From Chrysomallon squamiferum (Eukaryota > Mollusca > Gastropoda > Neomphalida > Peltospiridae): a stretch of 64,000 nt of DNA. The notes under the pieces are model-generated. The model worked only from the letters and a program-made list of their open reading frames with translations, was not told the origin of the DNA and did no database searches. A program made the translations under genes and the position numbers. The stretch lies in assembly GCA_012295275.1 (NCBI GenBank), contig CM022674.1, positions 7,697,409 through 7,761,408 of the forward strand. The letters run 5' to 3'. This document shows positions 5,201 through 31,319 of the stretch, piece by piece (positions within the stretch are counted from its first letter, which is position 1; every line of letters begins with the position of its first letter).

Positions 5201-5402
5201 CTAGTTTTGATGATACTCTATTAAGTATTCTGCATAGCACTGGGCATTGTCAAAAATTACAAATATCTTAGGTTGGTATGTGTTATCGACGACACAGTCA
5301 TAGAGTTCATCTGGCTTTGACTCGTCAACTGGTGGTGGTTTTTTCATTCCTCGTTCACCTTTCGTATATTTTCCAACAAGTACTCTCACATTGAACATAA
5401 AC
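5201..5402 (-). CDS. gene A exon 19: PARP C-terminus
   Basis: Reads FMFNVRVLVGKYTKGERG, then MKKPPPVDE, then KIFVIFDNAQCYAEYLIEY and ends at TAG (5201-5203). It carries the third catalytic position, Ile954 in place of the Glu of poly-ADP-ribosylating PARPs. Acceptor CTAG at the 5402 side. Confidence 0.93.
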
Positions 5403-8400
5403 CTAGGAAAATATAATCATAGCCATTGCAGTTTTTTTTTATTTGTAAAAAAAACAACAACCCCAAAACCCAAAACAACAACAACAAGATGGTAGATAGA
5501 TATATAGACAGAAATTCAGTAATTAGGGTAGGCTGAAAAGTAAATGGCTATGAAGGAGTAATGCTAGAACAGTGAAACTACTCAGAGAAACTGGGATACC
5601 TGACTGAAAAAACACCAGGTTGATCACACTATGAGAGAATTTGGACTGTTTTGAAACAAATCTGCAAATTTCATGGCTCACTTAGAGCCAGAGGCAAAGA
5701 AATAATCAATGCAATTATCATTCTCACTTCCTCCAAAGAAGGCCAGGGTTGTTTCATTAGTGAGGAAGGTGATGGTGTGGTTTTTTTTTTGAAATACAAA
5801 AGTATAGTGTTTATAGACTATCTTCAAACTGGCCAAACAGTAAATGGGAGTGTTCTTTGCTAACTTGTTGAGGCAGTTGTATGAGTCTATCAAGAACAAA
5901 CGTACAGGAAAACTTTCAAGTCTGTGGTTACATGGCTAGTATGCACATTTGGCTTTGAACTGACTGATAATTTTCCAAACTCTCCTGATTTGGCAGTATC
6001 TGATTATCATCTAATTCCAAAACTGAAACAAAAACATTTGGCTGGCAAACCATAATGGAACTGTAATGTTGAGTACTTATGTACTAAATACTGCAGCACT
6101 GCTGAAAGAAGTGTATGGTCTGTAAGCAGTCTGTGTTGAATAAAAACTATATATCATCATATTCCACAAGGGCATCGTGTTAGGCTATGAACTTTTCAAC
6201 CTGTTCTGTTCTATAACGATTGCTTTTTTCAGTTTTCTTTTTTTGTTAAATTGATAAAACATTTCTATTCAAAGATGACCCTCATTTTTATTTCTACAAA
6301 ACGAAAAACAAAATTTAAAATTTATCCGTTAGCTTCTTTTATCAATTCAACTTTTATAAATAATGCTTTGATGAAACTATGCCATTATTAATTATTTGAA
6401 AATAAATCAACATTCTAAATATGATAAAGTAAAATTTATTACAATTAACTTTTAAAAGTCTATTTGTAAATATAATATGATTACATGCAAACATAAATTT
6501 ATTTATTTTGAGTTGGGTGTTTTTTCTTTGGTCATGTTGATTCTAATGAAACTTTAAAAATTTGTGTTACCTGTTTCCTTCTTCATTTGGTTCTGTGTAG
6601 CCATCAGATGTTTTGGATTCTGAAGCAAAGTAGGCACCATCACCATACAATGCTCGCTTTACCACTCTAAAGTCAATACCTTGATTTACAATGCGATCAA
6701 CAATGTCTGCTTTGGTACCATGGAACAGTTGTTGCTCATTTGCACCATCTAGGCCATAATTTCGGTCCATGATTTGTTTTTTCCTGAAATTTGAATAATT
6801 TGTATAATTATTTATTATAATTCACAAACAATTATTAGAAGTGTTACAACTGTCACAGTTAATTCTACATATGATCTCAACTATTGTTCAACATAACAAG
6901 AACTTCTCACTAAAATCCTTGTTACAAATTTCTTAGGACATCAGTATGACATGGTTCATATGCAGCATGGAAATCCTGGAAGTATAATATGGAATTTCAA
7001 AATTAATTTGACAAATTCTGGTAAATTCTTTAAATTTTAGTTTTGTTACCGAATGTTCTAATTTTACTCATCCTGTGATTAAATTTTATTTTCCTCTCTA
7101 ATGTTATGATAGTTAAGTTTTTATTTTAATCAGCTGCACTTTTTGATTCAACGATGCTATCAAAGCACATATCTCTGAACATGTGGTTTTCTTATTTCCC
7201 CACTTAAATTACAGACTAGTATGAATGATGTGATGTGATAATGTGATACGGTGGATGCAGTCTGCTCATGAAGGTATATGACAGGGAGTGTAAAATGAAT
7301 TTACTTTAGTATGATGATGAGATATAACATTAGATGTGCTAAATAGAAAGCTAAATTTCCTCCAACTGCATTTAATGTGTCAAATCAGACAAAGACATTT
7401 TTACAACAAAATCTGCTGTCAGTTTTAGGAAAACATCACTGATCTGAAGTCACAGATTTTCTTTTATTAAAAGCTAAATCATTAATTACATTTTTTTTCT
7501 CAAATCTTAAAATATGTCATATTCAAACACTTATATAAAATGTAAGAAAATTAGGTTCAGAATACTGAATACATACAAAGCAAAAGGTTCCCATCTGTCA
7601 AGATTCTGAATTCTGTGTATTGCTATGACAGATTTTGTAGGGAGCGTCCTCTTGAAATCATTAGAAACTTTCTGATATTCTTCAGATGTCAAGGGGTCTT
7701 TATAACTCAGAGAGATTTTCTGGACCTTGACACCTTGTTGCATGGACTGCCAGTACGAGGGTGAATCAATGGCTGTTTTTGATTTAGTTCTAACATTTTG
7801 AGCAGCTCTGAAAGTAGAAGTCATTTTAGAAATATTACTTAGTTATAAACTTTTAACAATTCTGTATCTGAACATGAGTTTTAACTCATAAATTTAAATA
7901 ACTCAAGTGCAGTCATCAATATAACTAAGATAATGTTTTAATATTCAGCATAGAGCAGTCTAAAGGAGGAAGTGACTGCATTTCATGTGGCTAGCTAAAG
8001 TGTTTAGTATAGAATATTGCAACTGCATTTATTTACTGTGTTAAAAAAAAACAACTTGGAAAAGAGAAATTCATAATTCTGCTTATAAAGAAATCCTAGC
8101 ATTTACCTCATCAGTACCCTGGCTAATTCTTTGTTTTGTATCAGGTCTATGGTTGTATTGCCATCTTTGTTTTTTATTGTGAGATTTGCTCCTTGATCAG
8201 CCAGCATGTAAAGAATATCAATAGATGTATCATCTTTTTCTGTTATCTCATTCCCATCCTGGATAAAAGTGTCCTGAAATGAACAACACAACATCAGACA
8301 ACAACATATAAATTTATTATTGTTTTAATGATGTTACTGTTTCAATGTTATCATAGGTGCTACAAATACATGGTCTATTAAAATTCTTTATACATCCAAG

Positions 8401-10815
8401 TAATTATTTTATTATCATCATTCAAAAATTTTGCGATAGTAAAAGTAACTAATAATATTACAAGACATTTATAATATTTACACTCACTAACTTAAGCTGA
8501 TACTGTAGTTTTATGACGTTAGTAGAAACTTTAACACAAGCAGATCCATCTCTACATGATGACATCACAAATTTTAAATAATGCATAATATACTTCAACA
8601 TAAAACTTTTATCAAATTAATATTTTTCTTTCCTAAATAACTTACTAGCAATTTTAAGGAAGGTTTTTTAAGAACCAAATGTGATGGTGTATTTCCATTG
8701 ATATCCTGAGTATTTACATCTGCATCTATCAAAACATAAGAGCAAAATTATAGTACATTTTCACACCCCCTACCCCAGACACATACTAACACAGACTATG
8801 ACACAGATGTGGACACTTACATATACACATACAGATGCAAACAGACCCATCCACTGACATATTGACACACAGACACATGAACTAAACAAACACACACACT
8901 GAAAAATATCCTAAGAAATAAGCAATAGGTAAGCAGAAAAAATAATTTTAACATAATCTCACTTGTGAAAAGAAGAACGTCAACAATAGGCAAAGATTTC
9001 CTGATCATAGCCAGGTGAAGAGGTGTCTGGTGACTGTTATCCTTAACATTTACATCAGCTTTTCCCTAAAATACAATGTTAAATCCTTATGAGAAGCAGC
9101 ATCAAAAGTTAAATATAGGCAGTGATAGGTCTAGAATAAGATAAAGATTTAACTTTCTGAGAAAATAAAAATGTTATATGTTTCCTAATGGAGATATGAA
9201 TAATTAATGAAAAATAAATCCATCTTGATGTTCCTACTGGAGATATGCATGAATTAAGTAATGAAAATAAATCCATCTTGATGTTCTTACTAGATATAAA
9301 TAATGTAATGAAAATAAATCCATCTTGATGTTCTTACTAGATATAAATAATGTAATGAAAATAAATCCATCTTGATGTTCTTACTAGATATAAATAATGT
9401 AATGAAAATAAATCCATCTTGATGTTCCTACTGGATATAAAAATAGTATAATAGAAGACCAATCATTCATTGTGCTCCTACTAGATATAAATAATGTAAT
9501 AGCAATTCATCACTTATCTCTTAATGAAAATGAATACCTTACTAAGAAGACAGCTGACAAGAGACCTGTATCCATTGATAACTGCAATGTGCAGTGCAGT
9601 GTATCCTCCTTTCTTTGTCTTTAGGTTGACAACTGATGGCTGATTTTTAAATATCAGTTCAGCTAACCTGAAATTAAAAGAAAAATATTTTTTATCACTT
9701 ACTTTATATGTGCACAAACATTTTCAAATAATTATCAACAATATAAGGAAAAACCAAGTTTTTTTTTTTTTTTCACTATCCACACTTTCAGAAATCGATA
9801 GAGAGCATTAATTTGAAAATAATGAGATTATAAAAAGTGTTATTTACTAGATATGAAACAATTGTTAACAATATAGTCTAGCACTGTTTGAATGTATTGA
9901 CAATAAGTAGTCATTTGAGTCTACAAATCAGTGAGTGAGTGAATGATATCCCAGGTCGTAAAACAATTTAGCTATTGTGTCAGACAGAGGTATAAAAATG
10001 ATTTATATATAAAATTAAATGGTAAAACTGTATAAAAATATACTGTCTCATGTGGTGCTTAAAATAATTACCCTTTATGTTAACATGTCTTTATTGGAAA
10101 AATAAAAAAATAAACATCTTTGTATCACTATGCCAATTAAAGGATGTTCCAGCTTCAGGTGTTGTAAACTTGGAGGCACAAAAAAAATGTGTCAGTTAAA
10201 TAAGATATTGGGATGAAGCCTTTTTTCATTAGTTCCAGGGCTTTAAAGTCTGCCCAAACTTCAAGAGTAATAAACATACTGAATCAAGCAATCTCATGGA
10301 AATGTCAATGTCTGACTGAAAAAACACTGCACATCACAGAATTCCCATCCAGGTGATTCATCTGAATTGATAGAAATTCAGTCACAGTATCTTCCTCAAA
10401 TGTCTACTAAAAGTTGCTGATATATAGATGCATCTGAACAATGTTTTTTTTTTTTTTTTTTTTCAAATGCCCCAAATCTAGCACAGTCTTTGGTGGTTAA
10501 AATAAATAATATAATATGTCAGAGAAATCAGTTCTGGCAACAGATTAAATACTGCATGATAAAAAATCCAAAAATAGGTATGGCACTTGGCCTCACATCA
10601 AATATATATTTATTATCAGAAACTGCATTTCAAGTAGGATGTTTTGGTAATGATTTTATCTTCATACTATATAGCAGAAACAGTCAGTCTGCAAACATTT
10701 GGATGAGGATGCCTTTTTTTTAAAATCAGTTCCAGGGCTTTAAAACTATCTACAGGTACAAGCTCTCTCCAATACAAAGTCTGAACACTCCAGAAACAAA
10801 GTCTAAGATCTTGGC

Positions 10816-10846
<31 letters not shown>

Positions 10847-13739
10847 GTAACAGTTATGGCATTTATTCAATGAATCCATAATCCAATTTAGACCTTACAA
10901 AAGATCAACAAAGTAGGAGCATATATTACTGCCTGTAACTTTTCAGGGTCTTTAAGATATTTTTAACATATTTTTGATGGAGTACCAAGGACAACCTTTC
11001 CACCACAGGATTTGGATTTTTATCCAGAAATAGTTGTGGATTTAAATGTAGATCTCTTTTATGGCAGATATACATACAATTTCTCTGAGTCTTTGAAAAC
11101 TAAAACCATTATCTGATGCCCATTGCTGAAGTTTATTCATGCAAAGCTGCAGCTGACACTGGATGATATTAATTTGGATGATCTCTTGCAAATCAGAAAG
11201 AACAATCAATACCAAGTTTTAAACCCTGAGTGATGCTGTTAATTTTCACTGAAAATATAGTTTTTGATTATCCTGAAGTACACCCATCTCTTGCAAATTT
11301 GAAAATGTAGATGTCATCCAAGATTTGTAAAAATCTTTTTTAAAAAGTTATCTATAACAATAGGAGGGTGACCTCTTAGAATGAAGCTATGGAAGTCCTT
11401 CATAATACCATTCTTCCTCATTATATCATAAGCTTTCTCCAAATCAAAACACACTGAAACTAGGTGTTGATTGTGTATGAATATTTCCCTACAAAATATT
11501 TCAAATCCAACAAGTTGATCAATCGAGTTACATCTGGTCATGAACCCATGCTGCATTTAAGTAATAAAGAAACCAGACAAATCTGCAACTGATAATTCAT
11601 TTCATTGTTTTACAGATGCAGTTTGTCAAGGAAACAGGGTAATAATTAGCAGGACTTGATGGATTCTTAACAGCCTTTGGAGCAGGAATGACTATAACTG
11701 TCCTCCAATCAGAAGGAAAGTCACCAGAAATCCAGATTTCATTAAAATATTTAGAAGAGCTGGGTAAACATGTAAGTAATTAGTAGTATGGACACTACCA
11801 GAAGGGTTGGGACTAATTTTCATGGAGAAATCAAGAAAAAGAGACAAATTACAAAGGGTCTGATCTATGAAAGTGACTGTACCATTTACAGAGTGAAAAT
11901 ATGTATGGCTGTTATCATTAAAAAGAATCAAGTCTTTTTAGAGAATTAAATCTTCCAATTATTTACCTCTGTTTTTCACCTTCTTCATATTCCTACAAGG
12001 TGTGATGATGCCTGAAATCTCCCATTAGAATAAAAAGGGACAGGAGTTGGCCTACAAGATCTTGAAGGTCCTTAAGATTAAAACTGAAATGTTTCGGAGG
12101 AGGTAAATAAACTGAACACATAGTTTTATGACTGCAGCCAATAAGTTTAGTATTTTATGCAACTTTACTCTGGGAAATATTTTCATTAACAAGAAAGAAA
12201 ACTTTCTTGGAAACTCTGTTTTTGATTTCCTTGAATTTGTGACTAATAATATTAGTGTCTTTGGGGGAAGTTTTCTGAAAACATATTTAACAACTAATTC
12301 ATCAAAAGTGGGTCAAATCCAGGGAGCCTGATGAGCCTCTTGAAAGATTCTTAGAATCCTGAGAGATCTGTACTGATTTAGAATAAACTGTCTTTACTTT
12401 AGCATTCCATTTCTTTGTTTTCTGAATGTCAGAAATCTTTTTAAATTTATCCTCATCATTTGACCATGTTACGTTAGTCTAATAGCAGCAGCATATGACA
12501 AGTCCTACTAATTATGAAGATTAATCAACATTTTTCTAGCCTCAGGGAATTACAGATAAGTAGTACCATCTTTGTTCCTAGTAAAATTAAACAAATCAAT
12601 AGCTGTTAGCTGCATGAACTCTGGACCAAAGTGAAGAATTGTCAGTGGCAATGTACTTAGTTGCAGACATCAATCATGACTCAACCACCAGGATCCCATC
12701 ATCCACTTCACATGTCACATCTCACAACAAACAAGGTGCCTCATTCGAGGAGGTGGTGCAGTTACTGGTCATTTTAAGAATGTTCTCGTTTTCAATTTTA
12801 TTTCTAAGAAATCATTGTACAACTTTACATTTATGTATTTTCAGGTAGTGGTTACATCATACAAAATATAAACCTAGGATTACATGAAAGACAATGATAT
12901 AATAAAAATAAAAGCAAAGAGTGTTCACATACTCAAAATGTTCTTCAGGTACAGCCAGTATGTGATAACCAGACTATAATGGGTTTGTTTCAGGAACAAT
13001 TAATATTCTAATTAGCTAAGTTGTTTAAAATTTGTTTCATGATGATACTTTATAGCGATCATCTTAATGATATGTGACTACAAAGTTTAAAATAATAATA
13101 ATAATAATAATAATAAAATCTTTAAAAAATTCTGATAAAGGCAACTGACTGACTTGACAGCTGAAAGCCATACATACTTTTCTTTATTATTCATTACAGC
13201 CACATGAAAAGCAGACATCCCCTCACTGTTGAAAATGTCACATCTAATTTTCTTCACCTTCATCAACATCTCACAAATTGGGTAGTTATCCATAGCATCA
13301 TGGAGTGGAGTGTCTCCATCATTGTCCTTTTGTCAGAACAAACTCAATGTTTACATAATATAAGAGATCATGTTTTCAAAAATAATTATATAAAATTATA
13401 TGATTAAGAAATAATTTTATAAATCACAATAAATTGACAATTAATAGATGCAATACAAAGTTAAAACTTTATTATAAAGCTACAAGAATAAATGTATCAA
13501 TGCAAAATTTGCAAACAGGAATAATAATTAGAAAAGGGCATTTTTTGAATTAGGTGGGTTTTTGGGTTGTTTTTTTCTATAACATAATTAGAATCAAGGC
13601 TCAAAATTAAATAAATATATATTTAAATGTATTTTGTGAACTTCAGTTGAAAATACATGAATAAGGTACTGAGGAAAAATATACTGTGCCATTGTATTAA
13701 AAATTAATCTCTCTCTCTCTCTATATGTGTGTGTGTGCC

Positions 13740-13773
<34 letters not shown>

Positions 13774-14382
13774 TACACATGCATATACACCTTTGAATAA
13801 ATAAAAAGAAAATATGTGACATGTTAATAAAAAATGAATACATATATAACCTGTGTGTTAACATCACATCCCTTGTCAGTGAGGATTTTCACAATTTCTT
13901 TATTGTTTGCAGTCACTGCTTGGTGACATGGTGTCAGTCCTTTTTTATTCTTTTTGTTCATGTCAGCACCTTTATCAATTAGGATTTTCACAATTTCATC
14001 TTTGCCTCTGAAAAACATAATAATCATGAAATGACACAATGTTTATCTGTGTTACATAAAAGTATAATTACAGCATTAAAGAGAATAGCGATGCAATAAT
14101 TTAAAGATACACATTTAACTTACAGTGAAACCACATGATGAAGTGATATGTTATACAAATGTTATATATTTAACATACTGTTAAACAGCATGATGAAATG
14201 ATCTGGTGTATAAAAATCTAGATATAAATTGTAAAATAGTATGATGAAGTGATCTTATATAAAGAAAGAGATTTAACTTACTGTGAAATGTTAAAAAAAA
14301 TACCAATCTAACTATGAAGCAGCCAGTTGAAATATGTTGTATAAAGATACAGATACATCATAAAAAAACAGCATGATGATAC

Positions 14383-14423
<41 letters not shown>

Positions 14424-17400
14424 CATCTTAATAAAACAGCATGATGAAATGAAATGATATTAAATAAAGATATAGATTTAATTTACTATGAAATAGCATG
14501 ATTAAGTGATCACATATAAAGAAAGAAATTTAACTTAGTGTGAAATAATGTTAAATAAATACTCATCTTACTATATAGCAGCTAAATGAAATGATATGTT
14601 GTATAAAGATTTAACTTCCTCTGAAGTGATGTTATGTAAAGTTTAACTTACTGAGAAACAGCAAAATGAAGAGCAGTGTCTCCTTCTTCGTCAACCAGAT
14701 TTGGATCAGCTTTATACGATAAGAGAATTTTCACAACTTCACTGCTACCTGTGTAGCAAGCCAGTTGTAATGGACTGTTTCCATCAACAGTCTCATTCAC
14801 CTGCATATATGTATACACCTTTTCTTAATAAAACCTTTCATTATGGAATAAAAATATTTTATTTCTGATCATCATTTCTCTTATTATATATATTTAAAAT
14901 TTTGTGCATTACAAAATGCCCCAAATATGTAGTCTGAAAACAAATAAAAAGAAAAATAAAGAAAAAGAAAAATCCCTCAGTAATCTTAGTTTGATGGTTA
15001 ATGTCAGTTACTCTGAACTGGTTTAACTGTTGTGTTTAAAACTGTACATAGTTATAGAGTCAACACACTGATTAAAACCTCTTCAATATACATGTCACAA
15101 AATTTGATTTAAACCTAATTTGAGATAACTTTGAATTTATCATGTGCAATCTAGCAGAGACTGAAATATCTTTAACTGATGAAATATGAATAATAAAAAA
15201 ATAAAAAAAATTGTAATTTGTTACCAAGGTGGAACTGACCAGCTCATATACTTTATATTTCATATGAAAATATCTTTGAATGTGGTACAAAAATACACAT
15301 TTTTGCAATAGTATTATGGAAAAAATGCTATGACATTAGAACTATGATGTTGCTTTTAGGATTATGAAAATAATCTGATCAAAAAAGGATTATTGGAAAC
15401 AATATAATCAAACTAGGACAATGGAGAAAAATCCTGTCAAACTAGGAATTAGTTTACGATGTTAGCAAACAAGGATTTGGAAAAAGATGTTATCAAACAA
15501 TAACTATGGAAAAGATCAATGGTAGGGGGAAAAAATAGAATTATGGAAAAGATCTTACCAAACCAGGATTATTGGAAAGAATTTCTTTGACAGTTTTGAT
15601 GTCTTCCTGTGCTGCTGCTTCTATAAGTCGTTCAGATAAACTGATTTTATCTCCCTTCTGTATCAGTGACAAAATCATTTCACTAATGTTACTCCCTATG
15701 TCTGAAAATGCTAAAAAAAAAATATCATTCGTATGAAAACTTTTATTTTTTATTATTTTATTTTTTTAAATTTATCTTTCCAATTCATTTTCAAAAAATG
15801 AATAGATGTTAGGTATAGTACATTTATTTATTTACAGCAATATACTTTTATTTTGAATAAACTTATTTTAAAATAAATAAATTTTAATTTGTTTGTGTTG
15901 TTTATCATCTAATTTATCATTCCAATTGATTGTTAAAAAAGGATGAATTTAGAGTATTGATTATTTATTTATTAGCAGCAATTTGTTGTTGTTTTTTTGT
16001 TGTTGTTGTTCATTCTGTTTGTTGTTTATCTGTTTTATTGACAACATAGAAATGAACATTATCTTAATATATAACTTTGCTATAAGTTACAGAATAATGA
16101 TCAGTACACTGAGATAGGAATTCGTCTAATTCTTTGTACATCAAAACCTACTAAGAACTTCATCTCAAGAAGTACCAGTACATCATAATTATAGAAAGTT
16201 GGTGTTTGCAGACTGATAAAAACTTTATTAGATGTTTTTTGTTAACAGTCTATATATGACATCCCATGATATTTTCAGCAAAACTGTTTGACATCAGATG
16301 AAATTGACTGTAATTTTAATTCATATCTCTTGAACAGCTCTGTTTTAAAGTGAATAATACAATTGAATAGTTACTTACCACCAGGAATTATTTCCATTGG
16401 TGTCTCTGATACCTGGTGTTTTGATCTATTCTCATCAGCTGACTCTACATACTGACAACACACAGGACTAAACATCCACTGCTGTTCTCCTACTTTGACT
16501 GTCAGGTCACCATCATCATCAACAGCTACAATGATTCCTAACTCACCAAGAGCCTGGCATCAAATCCACATTAATAATTATGTTAAGTAAGAGAAAGTAA
16601 CTCATACAAACTAGCTAGGTTATACATGATCTATTTGACGTCATTTTGTGATTGTGTTACATGATGTTTGAATTTTCAGAAACGAAATATAAACAATTTA
16701 AAAATAATTTTAATTCCATTCACTGAGAAAATTAGAAACTTTACATCGCAGAAAGAAATAAAATACTGGGATAAAAAATGAAATCAATTATACTAGTCAT
16801 AATAATGAACTAATTGACTAATCAAATTTCAAATAATATCAAAATGAACTTAGTGCTGCTCACTGGAGTTTACAAAACAATCTGAAATGAAATCAAGATA
16901 AAAATAAATTTATACTTTTTCCATTTCATCATTCCAGCCACCATGTCCTTCCTGCAGCTCCTGAACAGCATTGATGTTTTCCAGAATTTGAACAGTCTCA
17001 CCAACAGAAAATGAGTGAATCTGAAAAAAGTGAAAACAGTAGATGTGAAACACATAAATATTTCTTAATTCATAGTAAAGAAAAAAAAAGAAAACATAAA
17101 TTATATTAAAAATATATATAGAATATTTAGATACATATAGATATTTCTTTACTTTAAAATACATAGAAAATAAATGACCCAAATAAATACTTCTGAAAAA
17201 TAAACAGAACAGCATAAAATGGAATTTCGTTAAAAAATAAATAAAACAACATAATAAATATTACAAATATATCATTTTAAATTAAAAATAAAGAAAAGAC
17301 CAATTAAAAATGAAGAAAAAACATTAAAGCAATACTTTTCAAAATTAAATTACATAAAGACTATAGAAATATTTCTTTAATTATATCTAAAGAACCCAAG

Positions 17401-17597
17401 ATAAAACAAATGTACAATTTAAATTAAAATTAAATAAATAACAGATTACCTTAGTTAATACTGATCTATAGAAATACCATGTTTGTGCATCTTCATACTG
17501 AACTTTTGCTATACTTGAGTTTTCTATTTCAATGATTGTTCCTAACTGTGACAAATACTTGAAAAAAAAAAAATAATAATAATTATAAAAACTAAAA

Positions 17598-17657
<60 letters not shown>

Positions 17658-19592
17658 TAAGGACAATAGTGTTGCTCTGATATTAAGATATCCTCTAGTC
17701 ACTACTGACCGCAGAAGAAAGATATTTGCATAATTTTATTTTATAAACACAAACACACACACACACACACACACCACATTTATTTTCATTTGGTAATTAT
17801 TGTGAATAAATAAACATTTATGTTATAATTAATTAAAGTAAATAAATACAAACATCAGATATCTTTTCATGCCACATTCCTTTAGTTTCTGAAAAAATTT
17901 TCTTCACCACTTTGGCATCTATATCCACTTGTACCTTGTCTCCAGGTTTCAGCTGATATTCTGACTGGCTTCTCACATCTAAACCAATAAACTACATTGG
18001 TTAATATTTTATCTTCATCATTATCGTCCTCATCATAATCTCATCATGTGGATCATCATTATTACTATTATTATTTAATATTATTATCTGTGATAATTTA
18101 ATCAAAGTAAAAAAAAAAGATATTAAAATGAAAGTCAAAAACTATTATGAGCTTCTGTGGTACATCTATAGTGCTTCTTTTAAAATTAACTAAAATTATT
18201 AAAACTTAGTATGAGTAACAGGTTTATACAGATTAAAAAACATTGTTTTTAATTAGTTTGTTAATTTATCGTTTTGATATTATTTGTTAGTATAGTTGTT
18301 ATGTATTTGCTGGTAGTTTAAGAAACACACCTAACACAGGAAGATGCTGTGGAAAGTAATACATGCTTTGTGTTTCAGCAATCAGAATGAGATCCATACA
18401 ACCTTCTCCTCCACATCTGTAGTTATTCATTGAACCTTTTTGCCACTTAACTTCAACACCACCTCTATAACTATTTCTTCCCCACTTTACTAAACGTATG
18501 ACTTCACCAGCTTCTTTACTGCCACCTAAATTTTAAGACAAAATAAAAGGAAAATTTCTTTGAAAAGATGCAAAATTCAGATTTCATAATTTTCAAAACA
18601 GAAAAAGATATTTGTTAAAGGAATTTAAATGAAATGAGTATAATTAATTACCTTTATGATTACAAAATAGTGTGATGCTTATTGTCACAATTATTGTAGG
18701 GGAAAGTTAATCTCACTTCAACTGTTATTTTTGTTGATATCTCACCATTCAGTCTATGTCATATCATATCACCTGTCATACTACATAATAACAGGTGACA
18801 CAAAAATTAGTTGTCCATTTTGATCCATGATTATATTACTGAGTGAGCTCAATATTTATGAGGATTTTAATATCTCAGGTGAGTGGCAGCACACAGAATC
18901 TAAACCTTGTATGAATATTTTCTTTCTACAATTTCAATGAAATGTTTTCCACTTTTATTTGTAATATTTGTCAGATTATTTCTTTTTGTATTATATATTA
19001 ATGAAAATATAAAATTTCAGTAGGTATCACATTAATAAATATAGAGGAACATATCATTAATTTCATCAGGTAGTTCCTCAAATAAAACATCAAATAATTG
19101 ATAAATAATAACACACAAAGATTATAAAAATCAGTCTTATGATTAGTATAAAATTACTAAACTTCTTGGTGTTAATTCTTCTAATTGTAAAATTTTAAAA
19201 GAAAAAACTCCATTTTTGACCATAAATGTATTTTAACATAGTAAGAAGTACACTACTGACCTCATTATGAACTCTTTACTGCGAAAATACTTACCATCCT
19301 GATTACTCCACTTCCAGTGTAACCCTCTCTTAACACTAGCACCTGGTAAAATTCCATGCACAGTTTCTGGTTTTAGCAAATTTCTTGAATCTATAGGCAC
19401 TCTAAAAATTATATTAACAGAAATGAATATGTCCTGTTTCAAACGTGACTATTATATATATTTTAATAAAAATATTGGAAGTAAATAATATTATTAAGCA
19501 ATAATACATACCTTTTTGAAATCGTTTGAGAAGATAAATTAGTATTAAATTCAGCAAAAATAAATGTGCAAAACTCTTAATAGTAAAAGGTA

Positions 19593-19639
<47 letters not shown>

Positions 19640-22183
19640 TTTTTTTTTTTTTTTTTTTTTTTTTAATGTAATCTCAGGTTTGCTAACTTACAGTGTAGAT
19701 TGCTGTGTTTGATGGAGAAGGAAAGGATGACTAAGATCATGTTTTCCACTCATGTAACACAGAGTGCAAAGGTCGAAGTCACTGCAGGTAGCACAATTCC
19801 ATCGCATACCTTCTATTGGATCCTTTTTGCAAATATCACATGCAATACCGTCATGAACACAACCTAAAAGTTACATAATACTGTTTTTGTGAGTTAATGA
19901 TGATGATGATGAGGAAATAATCATTACTTTCTAAATATGGTAAAATGTTATATATCAATAACAATGGAAGACATACAAAAACTAGTTACACTAAAAAGGT
20001 CTGAAAAATGGACGCAAAATAATTTAATTTGGAAGTTTAAAAATTTCCGAGAGCTCACAGAAAATTCAGATCGAAATTAATATGGCTGCGTCGAACGCCG
20101 ATTAGTGTTTACAAGCGTTTAAATACGTATGCCTTCATAATACAATCAATTTTACATAATAATTTGGGGAAATATGTCATTTAATCAATGCCTCGCATAC
20201 ATAGATGTCTATTATTGAGTAGAAATTTTCTGCAAAGGTCGAAACCTTTTGTTGTTGTTGTTGTTTTTTTTGGTAACTTTGACGTGATACCATCTCATAC
20301 TCGTTTCGTTTACGACGTCGCCAGCCAAAATTAAAAAAAAAAAAATAATGATAAAATAATAATAAAATAATATAAAATAAATAATTTTCACAGACCCTGG
20401 CGCGTGAATATGAAGATAACTATTCTCATTAGGTACCATAATGTGGACACGTTACTTTGCTAAAACTCCATACCAGACACCTCTCAGTACGAAGTTGTAA
20501 AACGATACTTCAAACCATTATATTCTTTTTTATATATATTTATTTCCTTTTTCAATGCATTAGAGGTCGTATTTACCTGTAAAAAGCAAACTGATCACGT
20601 TTTATCTGAATGATTGCCTTGATACATTCAGTATAAGGCTTGAATCAGTTTTAAAACAGAACATTTTTTTTTTAAAAATTGAAGGTCCGTCAACCGGCCT
20701 TATAAAATGTTTAGTCTTTTTCGTTAAAACAAAAAGCATTCAACTTCTAAAACATGTACTATTATGTATGCAAACAATAAGTTTCCTATTTTTATTTTTA
20801 AAAAATCATTGGTCCATGCTACTTAGATTATCATTATGGTTATTTATGACTTCAAATTAATAATTTATTAGCGAGAAAACAAAATTACTCCAAGATTGTT
20901 TACCTCTGTAGAAAATAAAATGACATTTTTGCTTTGGTTTTCTTTAATATTCTTGATTCACTTTTTTAGAGATAATTTGATTTTGGTTCAGAACGGACGC
21001 TGGTGACAGACGACATCTATCTGTAGAAGGGACATAACTGATGTTGTATTTCCGCATGATATTCATGCTTTAGAGATTTATAAATAAATAAATAAATAAA
21101 ATAAAATAATCATTATCTTGTGATATACATATGAATTTATTACTACTACTATTTTATTTTTATTTTCAAAACATTCGAAAGATTCAAAGAAAAACCTGTA
21201 ATTCTGTTTATTTTAGAAACGATTTCGTACTTAATTTTGAGATTAACACGAACGACATCTACAGAAGGGACGTAACTAATACTTTATTTTTCGTAGTATT
21301 TTAGAGGTTGAGAATTTATTATTTGTCGGAGCCCTCGTCGAATAACTAACTACATCTTGTTATTTAAAGATTTCTGAGAATAAAATTTAGCTTGTTCACT
21401 GAACTTGACGCAAACAAAACAGTGGTGTTCTATTAATAGTGTGATGTAAGGGGAATAACTGTAATAAAGCGAATGATTTGTACATGTCAGAGTATGAGAA
21501 AAGAGGGCTAATAAATCCATCGAAGTCTTACATGCGTTCGCGACATCTATGCTGCTGCATAATTGTGTAGCTACATAAAAGTGCTCCAGAACAACAAGAA
21601 TATTTCCTTAAACCCTTGTATTAATTCTTTCAGAATAAAACCATTTCGAGTTTCAGTACAGTGCACAACGTACTGACAATAAACAACTGACGTATTATGA
21701 TAACTAATTTATGAAAATTTTTCTTAGAAGAAAGAAATAATGAACGTATCGATATAGATATCATTTGTTAATATTTTTCGAATCTTACCTATTTAAAGAG
21801 AGTTTGTTGGGTTTTCGTTTATTTATTTATTTAGTTAGTGGGTTAGTTTTCATGATCTAAATCACGGAGTAATAATTACTCTGCTAGCTCAACAGCAACA
21901 ACAACAACAACGAAAAACTAATATAATATTAGGTGTAAAAAATCTGATAGATTTTTTTTCTTTTTCTAAATAGTTTACCTGTCGGTGCGTTATCATATAT
22001 TTTGAGTTCGTGTCGTCCATCATATCCAGCACGATAATGACCTTCGTGACCTATATCCCATATGACCTTCACCTTGCCATTAGCGACATCCTCTTTCACA
22101 ACAGTGCCAAGACAACCTTCGCCACCATCTTTCCCTTCACCAGCCCAGTCTGGACCTCGAACTACACGTGTTCCTACCGACAT
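5201..22183 (-). CDS. gene A: mind-bomb-like MIB-ZZ-MIB-SH3-ankyrin protein with C-terminal PARP domain
   Basis: Nineteen exons splice with consistent phases into 974 codons. Domains by approximate residue: MIB/HERC2 6-66; ZZ finger 70-115 with eight ligands (C77, C80, C92, C95, C101, C104, H110, H114); second MIB/HERC2 135-210; two mind-bomb SH3-like repeats 230-304 and 305-390, the second with the diagnostic GHGGWNDEM and DGDL; ankyrin repeats about 430-760; PARP catalytic domain about 785-974 with H858 (LFHGT), Y888 (GDGAYFA) and I954 (KIFVIFDNAQ). In mind bomb the modules before the ankyrins bind Notch ligands and C-terminal RINGs add ubiquitin; no RING cysteines occur here. The H-Y-I triad fits mono-ADP-ribosyl transfer, as in PARP10/14-type enzymes. 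No signal peptide or membrane segment is seen, so a cytosolic or nuclear location is likely. The start at 22183 is the first ATG after a plausible acceptor and opens directly into the MIB domain. Domain calls are firm; substrate and biological role are inferred. Confidence 0.9.
5530..6210 (+). mobile_element. mariner transposase remnant in intron 18 of gene A
   Basis: Interrupted plus-strand frames resemble mariner transposase: an IVFIDYLQTGQTVNG-like stretch near 5810-5850 and, further on, NSPDLAVSDYHLIPKLKQ followed by HLAGKP near 5980-6050, the region around the last catalytic Asp. Stops and frameshifts show that it is dead. It lies antisense to gene A. Gene B has the same insertion in its intron 18 with a large internal loss. 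Confidence 0.7.
6571..6783 (-). CDS. gene A exon 18: PARP core
   Basis: Starts by completing a Leu codon and reads KKQIMDRNYGLDGANEQQ, then LFHGTKADIVDRI and YGDGAYFASESK. It holds the NAD-binding His858 and Tyr888. Acceptor TTTCAG, donor GTAACA. Confidence 0.95.
6799..6892 (+). repeat. 94-bp repeat, copy 2
   Basis: Second copy of the sequence at 4178-4271, inserted close to the acceptor of exon 18. The matching part of gene B (about 62230-62320) lacks it, so it arrived in gene A after the duplication or was lost from B. Confidence 0.65.
7577..7807 (-). CDS. gene A exon 17: linker and start of PARP domain
   Basis: Contains EEYQKVSNDFKRTLPTK, then VIAIHRIQNLDRWEPFAL. The F-x-x-T...I-x-RIQN...W pattern, joined to the KKQIM at the start of exon 18, is the N-terminal signature of PARP11/12/14-type catalytic domains. 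Acceptor CTTTCAG, donor GTATGT. Confidence 0.93.
8107..8273 (-). CDS. gene A exon 16: last ankyrin repeats
   Basis: Reads DILYMLADQGANLTIKNKDG followed by NTTIDLIQNKELARVL, a recognisable ankyrin helix pair. No RING-type cysteines follow, unlike mind bomb at this point. Acceptor TTTCAG, donor GTAAAT. Confidence 0.93.
8646..8725 (-). CDS. gene A exon 15: ankyrin repeat
   Basis: Short 80-base exon, NADVNTQDINGNTPSHL, an ankyrin turn with the G-x-TPxHLA-type motif. Acceptor TGATAG, donor GTAAGT. The tail differs from gene B (VLKKPSLKLL against APIKPSLEMI). Confidence 0.88.
8963..9065 (-). CDS. gene A exon 14: ankyrin repeat
   Basis: GKADVNVKDNSHQTPLHLAM, a near-consensus ankyrin repeat. Acceptor TTTTAG, donor GTGAGA. 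Phase 0 in, phase 1 out, matching its neighbours. Confidence 0.92.
9195..9500. repeat. minisatellite in intron 13 of gene A
   Basis: About six tandem units of roughly 50-60 bases sharing AATAAATCCATCTTGATGTT and a C/TTACTAGATATAAATAATG part. Gene B has a longer array of the same family in the same intron (59050-59720). Confidence 0.85.
9538..9667 (-). CDS. gene A exon 13: ankyrin repeats
   Basis: Contains LAELIFKNQPSVVNLKTKKG and GYTALHIAVINGYRSLVSCL, a full ankyrin repeat. Acceptor TTTCAG, donor GTATTC. Confidence 0.93.
10130..12850 (-). mobile_element. jockey-like LINE remnant in intron 12 of gene A
   Basis: Degraded non-LTR retrotransposon on the same strand as the gene. Near 12000-12110 an endonuclease-like stretch reads FILMGDFRHHH. 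At 11314-11760 a reverse-transcriptase-like stretch includes QHGFMTRCNSIDQL and VCFDLEKAYD, containing the F-D-x-x-KAYD motif that precedes finger/palm residues. Frames are broken, so it is inactive. Gene B carries the same insertion in its intron 12. The edges are approximate. Confidence 0.75.
13178..13326 (-). CDS. gene A exon 12: ankyrin repeats
   Basis: DNDGDTPLHDAMDNYPICEM then FNSEGMSAFHVAVMNNKE, two ankyrin turns. Acceptor ACAAAAG is pyrimidine-poor but conserved in gene B. Donor GTATGT. Confidence 0.92.
13851..14007 (-). CDS. gene A exon 11: two ankyrin repeats
   Basis: DEIVKILIDKGADMNKKNKK, GLTPCHQAVTANNKEIVK and ILTDKGCDVNTQ: two canonical repeats. Acceptor TTTTTCAG, donor GTTATA, phase 2 to 0. 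Confidence 0.95.
14080..14640. repeat. degenerate minisatellite in intron 10 of gene A
   Basis: Repeated units of about 50-60 bases built from AACAGCATGATGAA(A/G)TGAT, ATAAAGAT and TTTAACTTACT, with a (TA)n tract at about 14388-14420. The same intron in gene B (about 54310-55020) holds a related array of different length. Confidence 0.7.
14652..14800 (-). CDS. gene A exon 10: ankyrin repeats
   Basis: VNETVDGNSPLQLACYTGSS, EVVKILLSYKADPNLVDEEG and DTALHFAVSQ. Acceptor ATGCAG, donor GTAAGT; phase 0 to 2. Confidence 0.95.
15559..15710 (-). CDS. gene A exon 9: spacer before and first ankyrin turn
   Basis: FSDIGSNISEMILSLIQKGD then LSERLIEAAAQEDIKTVKEI, LSNNPGL. The second part is an ankyrin-like helix pair (xLIEAAxxxDxxTVKxIL). 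The acceptor TTTTTTTAG at the 15710 side keeps the frame. Gene B has lost this acceptor and the frame in this exon. Confidence 0.88.
16379..16553 (-). CDS. gene A exon 8: end of second SH3-like repeat
   Basis: ALGELGIIVAVDDDGDLTVK then VGEQQWMFSPVCCQYVE, the L-G-x-x-G-x-V...DGDLxVxV...W-x-F-x-P pattern of the mind-bomb SH3 repeat. It is followed by a less conserved linker. Phase 0 to 1. Confidence 0.92.
16916..17020 (-). CDS. gene A exon 7: second SH3-like repeat
   Basis: FSVGETVQILENINAVQELQ then EGHGGWNDEMEK; the HGGWN-x-x-M core is diagnostic for mind-bomb repeats. The protein sequence is identical in gene B, the most conserved exon of the pair. Confidence 0.95.
17450..17557 (-). CDS. gene A exon 6: first SH3-like repeat, second half
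   Basis: YLSQLGTIIEIENSSIAKVQ then YEDAQTWYFYRSVLTK, the G-x-I...V-x-Y...W-x-F half of the repeat. Thirty-six codons, phase 0 on both sides. A long (AAT)n tract follows the acceptor side at about 17600-17655. Confidence 0.93.
17854..17978 (-). CDS. gene A exon 5: first SH3-like repeat, first half
   Basis: VRSQSEYQLKPGDKVQVDID then AKVVKKIFSETKGMWHEKIS, matching the F-x-x-GDxV-x-V...HGGWN start of a mind-bomb repeat in weaker form. The donor is GTTTGT, a non-consensus but usable GT site kept in gene B. Confidence 0.9.
18331..18525 (-). CDS. gene A exon 4: second MIB/HERC2 domain, main part
   Basis: GGSKEAGEVIRLVKWGRNSY, RGGVEVKWQKGSMNNYRCGG, EGCMDLILIAETQSMYYFPQ. The V-x-WxxG...YRxGxxGxxDL pattern is the MIB/HERC2 signature. 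Two codons shorter than the gene B exon. Confidence 0.93.
19295..19401 (-). CDS. gene A exon 3: start of second MIB/HERC2 domain
   Basis: VPIDSRNLLKPETVHGILPG then ASVKRGLHWKWSNQDG; the G-A-x-V-x-RGxHWxWxNQDG string is the MIB/HERC2 entry motif. Acceptor TTTTTAG, donor GTAAGT. Confidence 0.94.
19692..19863 (-). CDS. gene A exon 2: ZZ zinc finger
   Basis: One exon holds the entire ZZ finger: GCVHDGIACDICKKDPIEGM, RWNCATCSDFDLCTLCYMSG, KHDLSHPF. All eight zinc-ligand positions are present, including both C-x2-C pairs and the terminal histidines. Acceptor TTTTAG, donor GTAAGT. Confidence 0.96.
20330..20850 (-). repeat. dispersed repeat, copy 2 (intron 1 of gene A)
   Basis: Colinear blocks shared with 2689-3170. 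It lies inside intron 1 and therefore appears again in the duplicated block at about 27940-28450. Confidence 0.45.
21979..22183 (-). CDS. gene A exon 1: start codon and first MIB/HERC2 domain
   Basis: MSVGTRVVRGPDWAGEGKDG, GEGCLGTVVKEDVANGKVKV, IWDIGHEGHYRAGYDGRHEL. The RVVRGPDWxxGxxDGGxGxxGTV...WDxG...YRxGxxGxxxL string is a full MIB/HERC2 domain. An AG acceptor lies just before the ATG (AACTTAG then AGTGATG), so an upstream non-coding exon is likely. Confidence 0.95.
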
Positions 22184-22239
22184 CACTCTAAGTCTCTTTC
22201 AAAAAGAATTAAATGGAATAATTTTGCAGTGAAAATATT

Positions 22240-22370
22240 TATCTGTATGTCTGCCTATCTATCTATCTGTCTATTTATCTATATATATATATCTGTCTAT
22301 CTATCTGTCTGTATATCTATCTGTACTATTATCCATCTGACTGTCTGCCTGCAGGTCTGTCTATATGTCC

Positions 22371-22415
<45 letters not shown>

Positions 22416-22550
22416 GCTATCTAGCTATATGTCTGTCAATCTATACGTCTGTCTGTCTGTCTATATTTCTATTTATTTGTCTGTCTATATTTCTATTTAT
22501 GTATTGTCTATATTTCTATTTATTTGTCTGTCTCTCTGTCTATCTACACA
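22240..22550. repeat. complex (CTAT)n/(CTGT)n satellite upstream of gene A
   Basis: Variable CTAT, CTGT and CTGC tetramers. It repeats at about 29850-30160 in the duplicated block with almost the same interruptions, which supports the duplicate being one locus seen twice. Confidence 0.9.
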
Positions 22551-23650
22551 GAGTTGTACGTTTCTCTAGCAGACTCTGAGATGAGCGGTCATCTACGATG
22601 TACGGACAGTTTTCCAGGGCCCATTTCTTTTCACTGGATATGTCCCTTAGATCAGCGGTCACCTACAGAACGCGATTTTGGAAAGCATTTTAAAATTATA
22701 ATTCAACTGCTAAATGTATTTGGATTTTTTCTCCAATATTAATAATTTTATTGTTGTACGGCAGTTTTATACTATATTTTCTGCGCTGCACAATGCATTC
22801 TGGAATTGTCACTTCTGTCGAATACAAGAATCTGCGAAATGCAGTCGCTTGGCTGTTAAACCGCGCGAATTCACCCCATTTGGTACACAACTTTGATGAT
22901 GTTTAGCGGTCTTTGGGGTCGATAAAATGGTGCGGCTGGCACGATTTGGAGCTCTGTCTCGATTTCAAATTCAATATTTTGCTAAAACATAAATATAATT
23001 TATGCTTATTATGACTGTTATGAACTGCAAAAGTACGATTTATTTACATTTGTCAGTGAACTCGATATGTTTGTTTTAGAGTTTAGCAGAAAGCTCTGGC
23101 GCTTGATGTAATTCTCGGCCACGGTTTATGTTTGTTATGGGTTCTGGTGTGGTGGATGTGAACAACGATAGTAAATAGGTTATTATGGAAAATAATAAAA
23201 TTGCCTGTTATTTTTGTCCCTCTGATGAGGAGACACCTGCGTTGTAGGGACACTTTTGCTTGGCTCCACAGGTGTCCTTACAAGACAGGTTCCATTCTGT
23301 GTGTGTGTGTGGCTCGCTCAGCTGAATGCAATTAATAAACATATTTTTACTACTACTGATAACTGATAAAAATGATAATATTTATAAAAGGGTTATTATT
23401 CATCATTACACATTTCTTAATTTGCTAAGCAAGTCATCCTTATTATAAATATTTCCAATACCTTTGCAGATTTATATATAAACGTTTACACATATACCGT
23501 AATTAATTTTGAAAACAAAACCAAAGCTAAAAACGAAGACAAAAACGAAAAAAAAAAAAATATATATATATTTAAATAAATACAAAATATAACCGTCTAA
23601 AGGTTTTAATAATTTTTGCAAGTATTATGATGATGATGATGATAATAACG

Positions 23651-23703
<53 letters not shown>

Positions 23704-24539
23704 CGTTATTATTATTCTGTTTATATGAGTCTGGACATTAAAAAATCATTTTTAGATTTCCTTTGAATAGACATCTTACGAAATACGCGGTTTAACGTTT
23801 CCTGAGTAGGGATCATGTATCATATATCGAGACAATAGTTGTGACAAGTTTTTACGTGTTTGTCTAAATTACATCCTGGTATGTAAAATGTTGTGGATTA
23901 AATGTATATTATTGTTATGTTTCATTTCACCGCAAAACTCAAACTAAATATATCTTCTTTAAAGTATAAACAATTTTTTTATATTACTAGGTTTACCGTA
24001 TCTGGTTAAAACTGTCAAACTTACCGGGTAAACGGTGTAGTTGTTATCTTGTTCTGCATTCTGGTCGTTCGACGTTGCCTCAGTCTTCGTAGCAATTATC
24101 AACACAGAAATCTGCATGACAAAGGCATGTCGGGAACGTTTCAAATATAGACGACCCGTCAGACTACAGTGATAATTAGTTTATAGAGCATTTTTATCTG
24201 CTACAGTAGTTACCATTTCGCGCTTCGTAGCGGTCAAGTTCGATTTCCTATTCACAAGATATTACTCTTACTATTATTATTATTGTTGTCGTTGTTGTTA
24301 TGCAATGGACTGCTAGAAATTTAAATTAAACAAATGTTAAATTTAAATTAAATAAATGTATGAAATACAACCGTACATTTTCTCCTTTTGCTTCTTGTTA
24401 TCAAAAAAACAGCTCAAGTCACACAGCGTACGCACCGAAACACCACGGTCCATTTCTTTCTCAACAGCTCTACTTTACCTTGGATCGACATGGACTGGTG
24501 TTTACGTTTTGACACCATGAGAGATAGTTTCACTTGTCT
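22551..24539. other. non-coding region upstream of gene A
   Basis: No gene is supportable. Contents: a GC-richer stretch at 22551-22980, a short GT run near 23300, an (ATT)n tract at about 23650-23720 and AT-rich spacer. Small open frames here show no family match and no splice context. The promoter of gene A should lie here or further up but could not be pinpointed. Confidence 0.4.
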
Positions 24540-25060
24540 TAGAAGCCATAGCTAGGTGAAGTTGAAGCGAAATAAGCTAAGAATCTCACAGAATTGCGGT
24601 ATCACAGAAGTGCAGTGTAAATAATGTAAATAAGCACGCCCTACACATAACGCCATCTGTGGCTGCCCAGTAAACAATTCTCTATGTAATTTTGTCCGGA
24701 CTAAAGGAGGTGCCGGGAATTCGGTGGTGTACCTGCAGTATAAATAGGTGAAAGACTTATCCTCGTGGAGCTGGTTACGATTCGATATGCTGGACACTCT
24801 CTTGTGTCCTGCCTAATACTAATTTTAGTAATAATCCCTTTCTGTTTCCTTCCCAAAAACTATTTTTCTACGGCAGACACGCCCGCTGACCTGTGAGAAA
24901 GCATGCCTGTCGTACACGTGCTTCGCAATAGCACGCTCTGTTTAGCACGTTAAATTTTTCCCCAGGTCCCAGATCCTCTTGGGGAATCCCCGAAGAGGTC
25001 ACATGTACTGAAAGTGTACGGATCATAGTGAAGCCGCAATAGCGCTATTCAACTCGTTCG
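24540..25060 (+). promoter_or_regulatory. GC-richer promoter-like segment with TATA box and hairpin
   Basis: A plus-strand TATAAATA lies at about 24738 after a GC-rich lead. Further on, 24975-24998 forms a strong hairpin (CCTCTTGGGGA and TCCCCGAAGAGG). The composition differs from all neighbours. It could be a retroelement LTR or a plus-strand promoter directed towards the orphan exon at 25301. No terminal repeats were found. It recurs at about 32160-32670 in the duplicated block. Confidence 0.3.
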
Positions 25061-25300
25061 TTGTAATGTATCACACTTCTATGCTACATATCAGTATTAA
25101 CAAAATTATTATTAACTGGCGCGTGGTCCAAAACTTCAATACGTTTTTGAGTTTTATTTTAATACCATTTGTACTTATTAAATTATCACAGATAATACTA
25201 TTAAATAATAATAGAAATAATGATGATGCACATGTTGAGATTATGATGAGGAGGATAATGATGCAGATAAATTATAAACTAATGTATTTTGTGGGTTTAG

Positions 25301-25425
25301 ATGTGAGAAGCCAGTCAGAATATCAGCTGAAACCTGGAGACAAGGTACGAGTGGATATAGATGCCAAAATAGTGAAGAAAATTTTGTCAGAAACTAAAGG
25401 AATGTGGCATGAAAAGATATCTGAT
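25301..25425 (+). pseudogene. orphan copy of MIB-PARP exon 5, opposite strand to gene A
   Basis: After a TGGGTTTAG acceptor it encodes VRSQSEYQLKPGDKVRVDID then AKIVKKILSETKGMWHEKIS, one SH3-like half repeat, with an intact 125-base length. Flanking sequence from about 25240 to 25610 also matches introns 4 and 5 of genes A and B. No neighbouring exon 4 or 6 is present, so this is a fragment of a further gene copy. The longer open frame that runs through it from 25066 includes intron sequence and is probably chance. Confidence 0.75.
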
Positions 25426-25591
25426 GTTTATTTACTTTAATTAATTATAATATAAACATTTTTATAATCACAATAATAACCAAATAAAAATAAATGTGTG
25501 CGTGTTTATAAAATAAAATTATGCAAGTACCTCTCTTCTGCAGTCAGTAGTGACTGAAGGATATCTTAATATCAGAGCAACACTATTGTCA

Positions 25592-25625
<34 letters not shown>

Positions 25626-26019
25626 CATATTTATTTATATATATTTTATTTTTTATATGGTGTCTGAATAATAGGAAGCTTCTATCAACCAATTAATAAT
25701 GCTGAGACATAGACAGTCGGTGACAGCCCGATTTTTATATCTGAAGCAGTCATTGGCTGTAATAGATTCCTTTCCTAGTGAGAGCCAGACGTTTACAGGA
25801 CTGAGAAAAATGTTCCATGTTTCTCCTAAACTTGGCAGAACATATGATTAATTCTAACAAGCTCAGTTTGAATTAGTGTCTTGAAATGAGAGACTGGTGA
25901 ATGATAAAATAGAAAGAAAATTAGAAATAAATAAATAGACGAAACGATAAATAAGCTTGAAATGAACCAATTAATAAAAAAGAAGGAACAAAATAATGAT
26001 AATAATAATAATGATAATA

Positions 26020-26053
<34 letters not shown>

Positions 26054-26300
26054 TTAATACAAATAATAATAATAATTATTATTATTATTATTATTATTAT
26101 AAAAATAAATAAATAAAAATAATAATAATGGTGTGTCTGTCTGTATCTAAGTATGTATGTATGTATGTATGTATGTAAATTGAAGCTACCAGTGACAATG
26201 AAGCAAATGCTTTTCAGTACATAGTTTTAATTCATTTTTAAAATTGCACAATTGATATATTTACAGGATACAGACAGAAATAATTATCTTATCTTATTAC

Positions 26301-26500
26301 NNNNNNNNNNNNNNNNNNNNNNNNNNNNNNNNNNNNNNNNNNNNNNNNNNNNNNNNNNNNNNNNNNNNNNNNNNNNNNNNNNNNNNNNNNNNNNNNNNNN
26401 NNNNNNNNNNNNNNNNNNNNNNNNNNNNNNNNNNNNNNNNNNNNNNNNNNNNNNNNNNNNNNNNNNNNNNNNNNNNNNNNNNNNNNNNNNNNNNNNNNNN
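26301..26500. other. assembly gap (200 N)
   Basis: Exactly 200 Ns. The sequence on both sides belongs to the same 7.4-kb block, so the real gap may be zero or negative in length. Confidence 0.98.
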
Positions 26501-26911
26501 GGCAGCACACAGAATCTAAACCTTGTATGAATATTTTCTTTCTACAATTTCAATGAAATGTTTTTCCACTTTTATTTGTAATATTTGTCAGATTATTTCT
26601 TTTTGTATTATATATTAATGAAAATATAAAATTTCAGTAGGTATCACATTAATAAATATAGAGGAACATATCATTAATTTCATCAGGTAGTTCCTCAAAT
26701 AAAACATCAAATAATTGATAAATAATAACACACAAAGATTATAAAAATCAGTCTTATGATTAGTATAAAATTACTAAACTTCTTGGTGTTAATTCTTCTA
26801 ATTGTAAAATTTTAAAAGAAAAAACTCCATTTTTGACCATAAATGTATTTTAACATAGTAAGAAGTACACTACTGACCTCATTATGAACTCTTTACTGCG
26901 AAAATACTTAC

Positions 26912-27018
26912 CATCCTGATTACTCCACTTCCAGTGTAACCCTCTCTTAACACTAGCACCTGGTAAAATTCCATGCACAGTTTCTGGTTTTAGCAAATTT
27001 CTTGAATCTATAGGCACT
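26912..27018 (-). CDS. second copy of gene A exon 3 (probable assembly duplicate)
   Basis: Identical protein to 19295-19401, with the same splice sites. There is no exon 4 to join before the gap. Confidence 0.6.
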
Positions 27019-27294
27019 CTAAAAATTATATTAACAGAAATGAATATGTCCTGTTTCAAACGTGACTATTATATATATTTTAATAAAAATATTGGAAGTA
27101 AATAATATTATTAAGCAATAATACATACCTTTTTGAAATCGTTTGAGAAGATAAATTAGTATTAAATTCAGCAAAAATAAATGTGCAAAACTCTTAATAG
27201 TAAAAGGTATTTTTATTATTATTATTATTATTATTATACGGTATTTTTTTTTTTTTTTTTTTTTTTTAATGTAATCTCAGGTTTGCTAACTTAC

Positions 27295-27466
27295 AGTGTA
27301 GATTGCTGTGTTTGATGGAGAAGGAAAGGATGACTAAGATCATGTTTTCCACTCATGTAACACAGAGTGCAAAGGTCGAAGTCACTGCAGGTAGCACAAT
27401 TCCATCGCATACCTTCTATTGGATCCTTTTTGCAAATATCACATGCAATACCGTCATGAACACAAC
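27295..27466 (-). CDS. second copy of gene A exon 2, ZZ finger (probable assembly duplicate)
   Basis: Same 172 bases as 19692-19863, with all eight zinc ligands. The only nearby difference is the length of the intronic ATT/T tract. Confidence 0.6.
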
Positions 27467-29587: not shown

Positions 29588-29792
29588 CTGTCGGTGCGTT
29601 ATCATATATTTTGAGTTCGTGTCGTCCATCATATCCAGCACGATAATGACCTTCGTGACCTATATCCCATATGACCTTCACCTTGCCATTAGCGACATCC
29701 TCTTTCACAACAGTGCCAAGACAACCTTCGCCACCATCTTTCCCTTCACCAGCCCAGTCTGGACCTCGAACTACACGTGTTCCTACCGACAT
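29588..29792 (-). CDS. second copy of gene A exon 1 (probable assembly duplicate)
   Basis: Same start codon context and MIB/HERC2 domain as 21979-22183. If the duplication were real, this would be the 5' end of a truncated gene lacking exons 4-19, or an alternative first promoter for gene A. Confidence 0.6.
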
Positions 29793-29979
29793 CACTCTAA
29801 GTCTCTTTCAAAAAGAATTAAATGGAATAATTTTGCAGTGAAAATATTTATCTGTATGTCTGCCTATCTATCTATCTGTCTATTTATCTATATATATATA
29901 TCTGTCTATCTATCTGTCTGTATATCTATCTGTACTATTATCCATCTGACTGTCTGCCTGCAGGTCTGTCTATATGTCC

Positions 29980-30024
<45 letters not shown>

Positions 30025-31263: not shown

Positions 31264-31319
<56 letters not shown>

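Follow-up and report, generated by a model that had tools for sequence, protein, structure and literature searches.

A molluscan gene combining a mind-bomb scaffold with a PARP catalytic domain: a putative mono-ADP-ribosyltransferase

Structure of the gene and of its locus

The window (the whole 64,000-nucleotide stretch of Chrysomallon squamiferum DNA analysed in this study) carries on its minus strand a gene of 19 exons (Table 1). The gene spans 17 kb and includes 18 introns; splicing yields 2,925 nt encoding a protein of 974 aa. GT-AG ends were found in all introns (donors GT 18/18, acceptors AG 18/18), the phases are consistent and the frame is kept. Re-splicing of the minus strand reproduced exactly the coordinates and the 974-residue length given by the original prediction. 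The sole run of N in the window (26301-26500) lies outside the gene.

Table 1. Positions of the MIB-PARP gene (copy A) and of associated duplications in the window
Feature	Position	Strand	Content
Exon 1	21979..22183	-	First MIB/HERC2 domain; start codon (ATG) 22183
Exon 2	19692..19863	-	ZZ zinc finger
Exons 3-4	18331..19401 (19401-19295, 18525-18331)	-	Second MIB/HERC2 domain
Exons 5-8	16379..17978 (17978-17854, 17557-17450, 17020-16916, 16553-16379)	-	Two mind-bomb SH3 (REP) repeats
Exons 9-16	8107..15710 (15710-15559, 14800-14652, 14007-13851, 13326-13178, 9667-9538, 9065-8963, 8725-8646, 8273-8107)	-	Ankyrin repeats
Exons 17-19	5201..7807 (7807-7577, 6783-6571, 5402-5201)	-	PARP catalytic domain; triad H858-Y888-I954; stop 5201
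Second, inverted copy (copy B)	45722..63515	+	Homologues of all 19 exons, same exon order
Direct duplication	18885..33922 (18885-26300 and 26501-33922)		99.25% identical around a 200-N gap; repeats exons 1-3

The inverted copy B is probably a pseudogene, or an assembly error: the length of exon 5 is changed by two bases, the frame shifts in exon 9, and the acceptor AG of exon 9 is altered. Comparison of copies A and B gave a dN/dS of 0.70 (dN 0.058, dS 0.084). This weak constraint is as expected if copy B is decaying and does not support selection on copy A; the ratio was rejected as proof of selection because copy B is degraded. No coding differences between the copies were observed in exons 3 and 7, although the introns beside them diverge by about 12-17% where they can be aligned; either gene conversion or strong constraint would account for this identity. 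A reverse-transcriptase-like remnant was detected in intron 12 of copy A (11314-11556, minus strand; RVT_1, E 0.007, below the Pfam cut-off). Since a similar stretch is found in intron 12 of copy B (about 57490-57888), the remnant probably predates the duplication.

The direct duplication is probably an assembly artefact. It is not certain which copy of exons 1-3 joins exon 4; for exons 1 and 2, both arms encode the same protein sequence. Each arm also contains an extra inverted exon-5-like fragment (25290-25425 and 32903-33038, plus strand). Open frames of a possible gene, which may encode an asteroid-type protein, lie between the two MIB-PARP copies (39093-41972, minus strand); one of four frames tested (40771-41208) gave a weak XPG_I_2 match (E 0.001, below the Pfam cut-off).

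Domain content of the protein

Pfam analysis of the 974-aa protein identified two MIB_HERC2 domains, a ZZ finger, two SH3_15 repeats, ankyrins and a PARP domain (residues 801-972, 84 bits), in the order MIB/HERC2-ZZ-MIB/HERC2, two mind-bomb SH3 repeats, ankyrins, PARP catalytic domain. The MIB-type MZM and REP modules and MIB-type ankyrins are thus all present. Splicing, Pfam and RING patterns agree with the earlier proposal that mind-bomb modules are joined to a complete PARP domain with no RING: every module named was found, and Pfam gave no RING match in the 974-aa protein. The RING pattern had no match in the spliced protein and a looser pattern none in six frames of the window, although a RING split by an intron would escape; as a control, the looser pattern found a RING in 8/8 RING-bearing MIB proteins tried and in 0/4 MIB-PARPs. 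A RING in an unseen exon after the ankyrins, which the original prediction had named as the case against itself, was looked for by Pfam and the six-frame scans and was rejected within these limits. The zinc-ligand pattern of ZZ was matched in 11/12 rows tried, the exception being P0006. The predicted structure has a pTM of 0.41, and the modelled arrangement of the domains relative to one another is uncertain.

The order MIB/HERC2-ZZ-MIB/HERC2, REP repeats and ankyrins is that of MIB2 and MIB1. Residues 2-375 match the MIB1 MZM-REP structure 4xi6 (E 5e-82), and a RING-bearing MIB2-like protein of Haliotis (P0067) shares 34% identity over residues 1-784 of the window protein; on these alignments MZM, REP and ankyrins are homologous to those of MIB1/MIB2. 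MIB2 and MIB1 end in RINGs, whereas the window protein, in which none was found, ends in a PARP catalytic domain. Homology to six MIB2-type proteins stops at window residues 763, 784, 767, 699, 766, and 762. In five of the six comparisons this end lies close to the boundary of exons 16 and 17 (aa 759/760), in keeping with a replacement of whole exons.

By sequence, the PARP domain is nearest to PARP12, then PARP15, then PARP14, and tankyrases rank far below. The catalytic triad is H-Y-I/V in 36/38 rows (37 representatives of the family described below plus the window protein); in all 36 complete rows the third residue is I or V, never E. H-Y-I/V is the sequence pattern of a mono-ADP-ribosyltransferase. 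The domain had been called PARP14-like: a mono-type PARP domain it is, with PARP14 only the third nearest relative. The window protein resembles PARP12, PARP15, and PARP14 in its catalytic domain, with the H-Y-hydrophobic triad and a tree position beside PARP12-like rows at moderate support. It differs from them in the mind-bomb scaffold in front and in lacking any WWE, CCCH, or macro domain match by Pfam.

A molluscan family and its origin

The original prediction knew of no described protein with this full order. The order is not unique, and a molluscan family is already represented in the databases. In three protein searches MIB_HERC2, PARP, SH3_15, and ankyrins were found together in at least 37 representatives (clusters at 90% identity) among the matches listed: 31 among 120, five more among 117 and one more among 23. 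Pfam gave the order of the domains for six of them (P0001, P0002, P0004, P0025, P0030, P0125), and 26 were aligned collinearly. All 23 organism-assigned representatives among the matches listed are from molluscs, including eight from gastropods (Gigantopelta 2, Patella 2, Haliotis 3, Littorina 1), 14 from bivalves and one from a chiton. Neither a non-molluscan organism-assigned match with the full domain set nor a cephalopod was among the matches listed, in searches that depend on shared 5-residue words. The closest relative among these matches is Gigantopelta P0001 (56% identity over 939 columns), which is collinear across the ankyrin/PARP junction; its model ends early inside the PARP domain. 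Two distinct MIB-PARP representatives each were found in Gigantopelta and Potamilus. The remaining 14/37 representatives (973-1,032 aa) are on contigs of 3,140-4,368 bases. Because the window gene spans far more than this with its introns, we infer that these contigs are most likely spliced transcripts in which the two halves, scaffold and PARP, are joined.

Most members are filed under ligase names. Of the 23, 19 are called mind-bomb (11 of these MIB2 or MIB2-like) and four hypothetical protein, and several UniProt entries are titled Poly [ADP-ribose] polymerase. Magallana gigas P0025 (E3 ubiquitin-protein ligase MIB2), Patella vulgata P0121 (MIB2-like) and Haliotis rufescens P0004 (mind-bomb-like) have the full domain set and belong to the family; although they are named as if they were ubiquitin ligases, their entries list no RING. 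No paper describing a mind bomb-PARP fusion was found in the open-licence literature searched, and the terms 'MIB' and 'mind bomb' are absent from the main text of PMC2964712. The parts are known; their combination, which two molluscan classes retain mostly with ligase annotations, appears to be new. Another pairing of MIB/HERC2 and PARP was seen in P0226, an MMETSP transcript (from transcriptomes of marine protists) whose protein also carries a kinase domain; its layout is different and its PARP domain is distant in the PARP tree.

Trees were computed separately for the two halves, with midpoint roots used for drawing only. The PARP tree (47 rows, including 22 MIB-PARP rows; 21/36 representatives and 25 other matches were taken in) separated the 22 MIB-PARP rows from the others by a branch supported at 95/91, and the chiton was the outermost of them; without it, support for the 21 gastropod and bivalve rows was 90/77. 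The tie to PARP12-like rows was supported at 84/73, and the wider group with PARP14 at 99/91. The scaffold tree (28 rows, 18 representatives) left out P0031, P0027, P0121, P0125, P0033, and P0065, which were present in an earlier 34-row tree. In it, a branch supported at 100/99 sets 18 gastropod- and bivalve-type MIB-PARPs apart from the other rows. Within gastropods and bivalves, a single fusion passed on ever after agrees with both trees, with moderate support on the PARP side.

The scaffold of the chiton protein (Liolophura sinensis P0030) grouped with RING MIB2 and MIB1 in the 28-row tree, as it had in the 34-row tree, and a single group of all 19 MIB-PARP scaffold rows including the chiton was rejected (AU p 5.4e-5). 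Between its ankyrins and PARP domain P0030 has two WWE stretches and a CCCH finger read by eye. It is either a separate or mosaic fusion that shows a PARP12-like donor or a joined gene model. With an MIB2-type scaffold and a PARP domain that groups with the MIB-PARPs, it could be an intermediate as well as a gene-model join. As its scaffold and PARP placements conflict, the single-fusion account is not settled beyond gastropods and bivalves.

RING-bearing MIB2-like proteins were found in Gigantopelta (P0016) and Haliotis (P0067); in at least these two genera, therefore, the fusion was added to MIB2 and not swapped for it. To judge from these two genera, it is plausible that MIB-PARP acts beside mind bomb and not plausible that it replaces it. 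A likely origin would be the duplication of an MIB2-type gene and then, still before the gastropod/bivalve split, replacement of the RING exons with 3' exons of a PARP12-like gene; RING-type MIB2 would have been retained alongside.

Possible function and its alternatives

In other proteins the mind-bomb body serves to ubiquitinate Notch ligands or NF-kB partners. In the window protein a PARP12/14/15-type catalytic domain sits after the scaffold, at the position of the RINGs in MIB2. As judged from domain content, this molluscan protein is probably a mono-ADP-ribosyltransferase on a mind-bomb scaffold, with the mind-bomb body choosing the substrates. The scaffold would recognise peptide motifs in membrane or signalling proteins; once such a protein is bound, the PARP domain would move single ADP-ribose units from NAD+ onto it, and a mind-bomb-like recognition step would then end in ADP-ribosylation instead of ubiquitination. 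The interpretation first offered for this gene is partly supported: its coordinates, the lack of a RING and the mono-type PARP domain stand, and the uniqueness of the domain order does not. It is possible, though less likely than not, that MIB-PARP provides a second output of mind-bomb recognition in molluscs, in which an overlapping set of proteins would receive mono-ADP-ribose. This mark would either compete with ubiquitination by the RING MIB2 of the same genomes or prime it.

The Notch reading draws on what is known of MIB1/MIB2. In the available part of one study, the MZM is described as binding the N-box and the REP the C-box of Notch ligands, most of the function of Mib1 being carried by the MZM (PMC11887331). 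We counted 99 conserved columns, kept in at least 9/10 rows of a set consisting of human MIB1, RING-bearing MIB proteins and chiton P0030; these are counts of column conservation and not of MIB1-Jagged1 contact residues. At least 90% of 19 MIB-PARP rows keep 58/99 of them (MIB/HERC2-1 17/24, ZZ 17/21, MIB/HERC2-2 15/29, REP 9/25), which amounts to 49/74 for the MZM. Since the signature residues of REP are poorly kept, the specificity of this module has probably changed in MIB-PARPs. The scaffold may still bind Notch ligands, one class of substrate suggested by the original prediction, with the N-box side partly and the C-box side poorly kept.

It is also possible, if short of probable, that the protein is an immune or stress effector unrelated to Notch, combining an MIB2-like NF-kB scaffold with a PARP12/14-type antiviral transferase; its chemistry may match that of the mono-ADP-ribosyltransferase proposed above. 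PARP12/14 have an antiviral role in vertebrates, and the divergence of REP and the presence of two distinct representatives in both Gigantopelta and Potamilus would be in line with such a role. In the available text of three studies, a gene called MIB2 is named in a TLR/NF-kB pathway tied to resistance to POMS in oysters (PMC10491289), an MIB2 is among the ubiquitin ligases upregulated in stimulated mussel haemocytes (PMC7773633), and in oyster haemocytes an MIB2 is predicted to be targeted by a microRNA (PMC4650145); however, each could be MIB-PARP or RING MIB2, which these texts do not distinguish. The immune reading is as plausible as the Notch reading.

Some PARP family members are inactive (PARP13/ZAP), and the scaffold is kept here with no RING found, so that a decoy competing with MIB1/MIB2 for ligands, its PARP domain inactive or a reader only, can be considered. 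This is unlikely: the H-Y-I/V triad is retained in all but two of the rows, and the PARP region of MIB-PARPs is conserved to the same degree as their binding regions. A poly-ADP-ribosylating enzyme like tankyrase is very improbable. Tankyrases likewise have ankyrins followed by PARP, and the UniProt titles mentioned above would agree, but the window protein has a mind-bomb N-terminus, a far weaker PARP match, no Glu in the triad and no SAM domain by Pfam; tankyrase identity was rejected on the triad, the ranking and the SAM result. Two adjacent genes or an assembly join are hardly credible at all and were rejected: the duplication around the N gap takes in exons 1-3 and a join of this kind could underlie the chiton model, but there is no N within the gene, its frame is kept through 18 introns, the domains occur together in the listed representatives, including those on transcript-sized contigs, and inverted copy B has the same exon order.

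The mono-ADP-ribosyltransferase reading, if correct, would make MIB-PARP, which gastropods and bivalves have both retained, a natural case of one modification enzyme exchanged for another while the targeting scaffold stayed recognisable, and would offer a direct test for crosstalk between ubiquitin and ADP-ribose on one recognition system. Some mollusc genes annotated as mind-bomb ligases may deposit another mark than ubiquitin. In studies of oyster, mussel, and abalone, a gene taken for a ubiquitin ligase under the name 'MIB2' or 'mind bomb' may sometimes encode an ADP-ribosyltransferase; each such gene can be checked individually.
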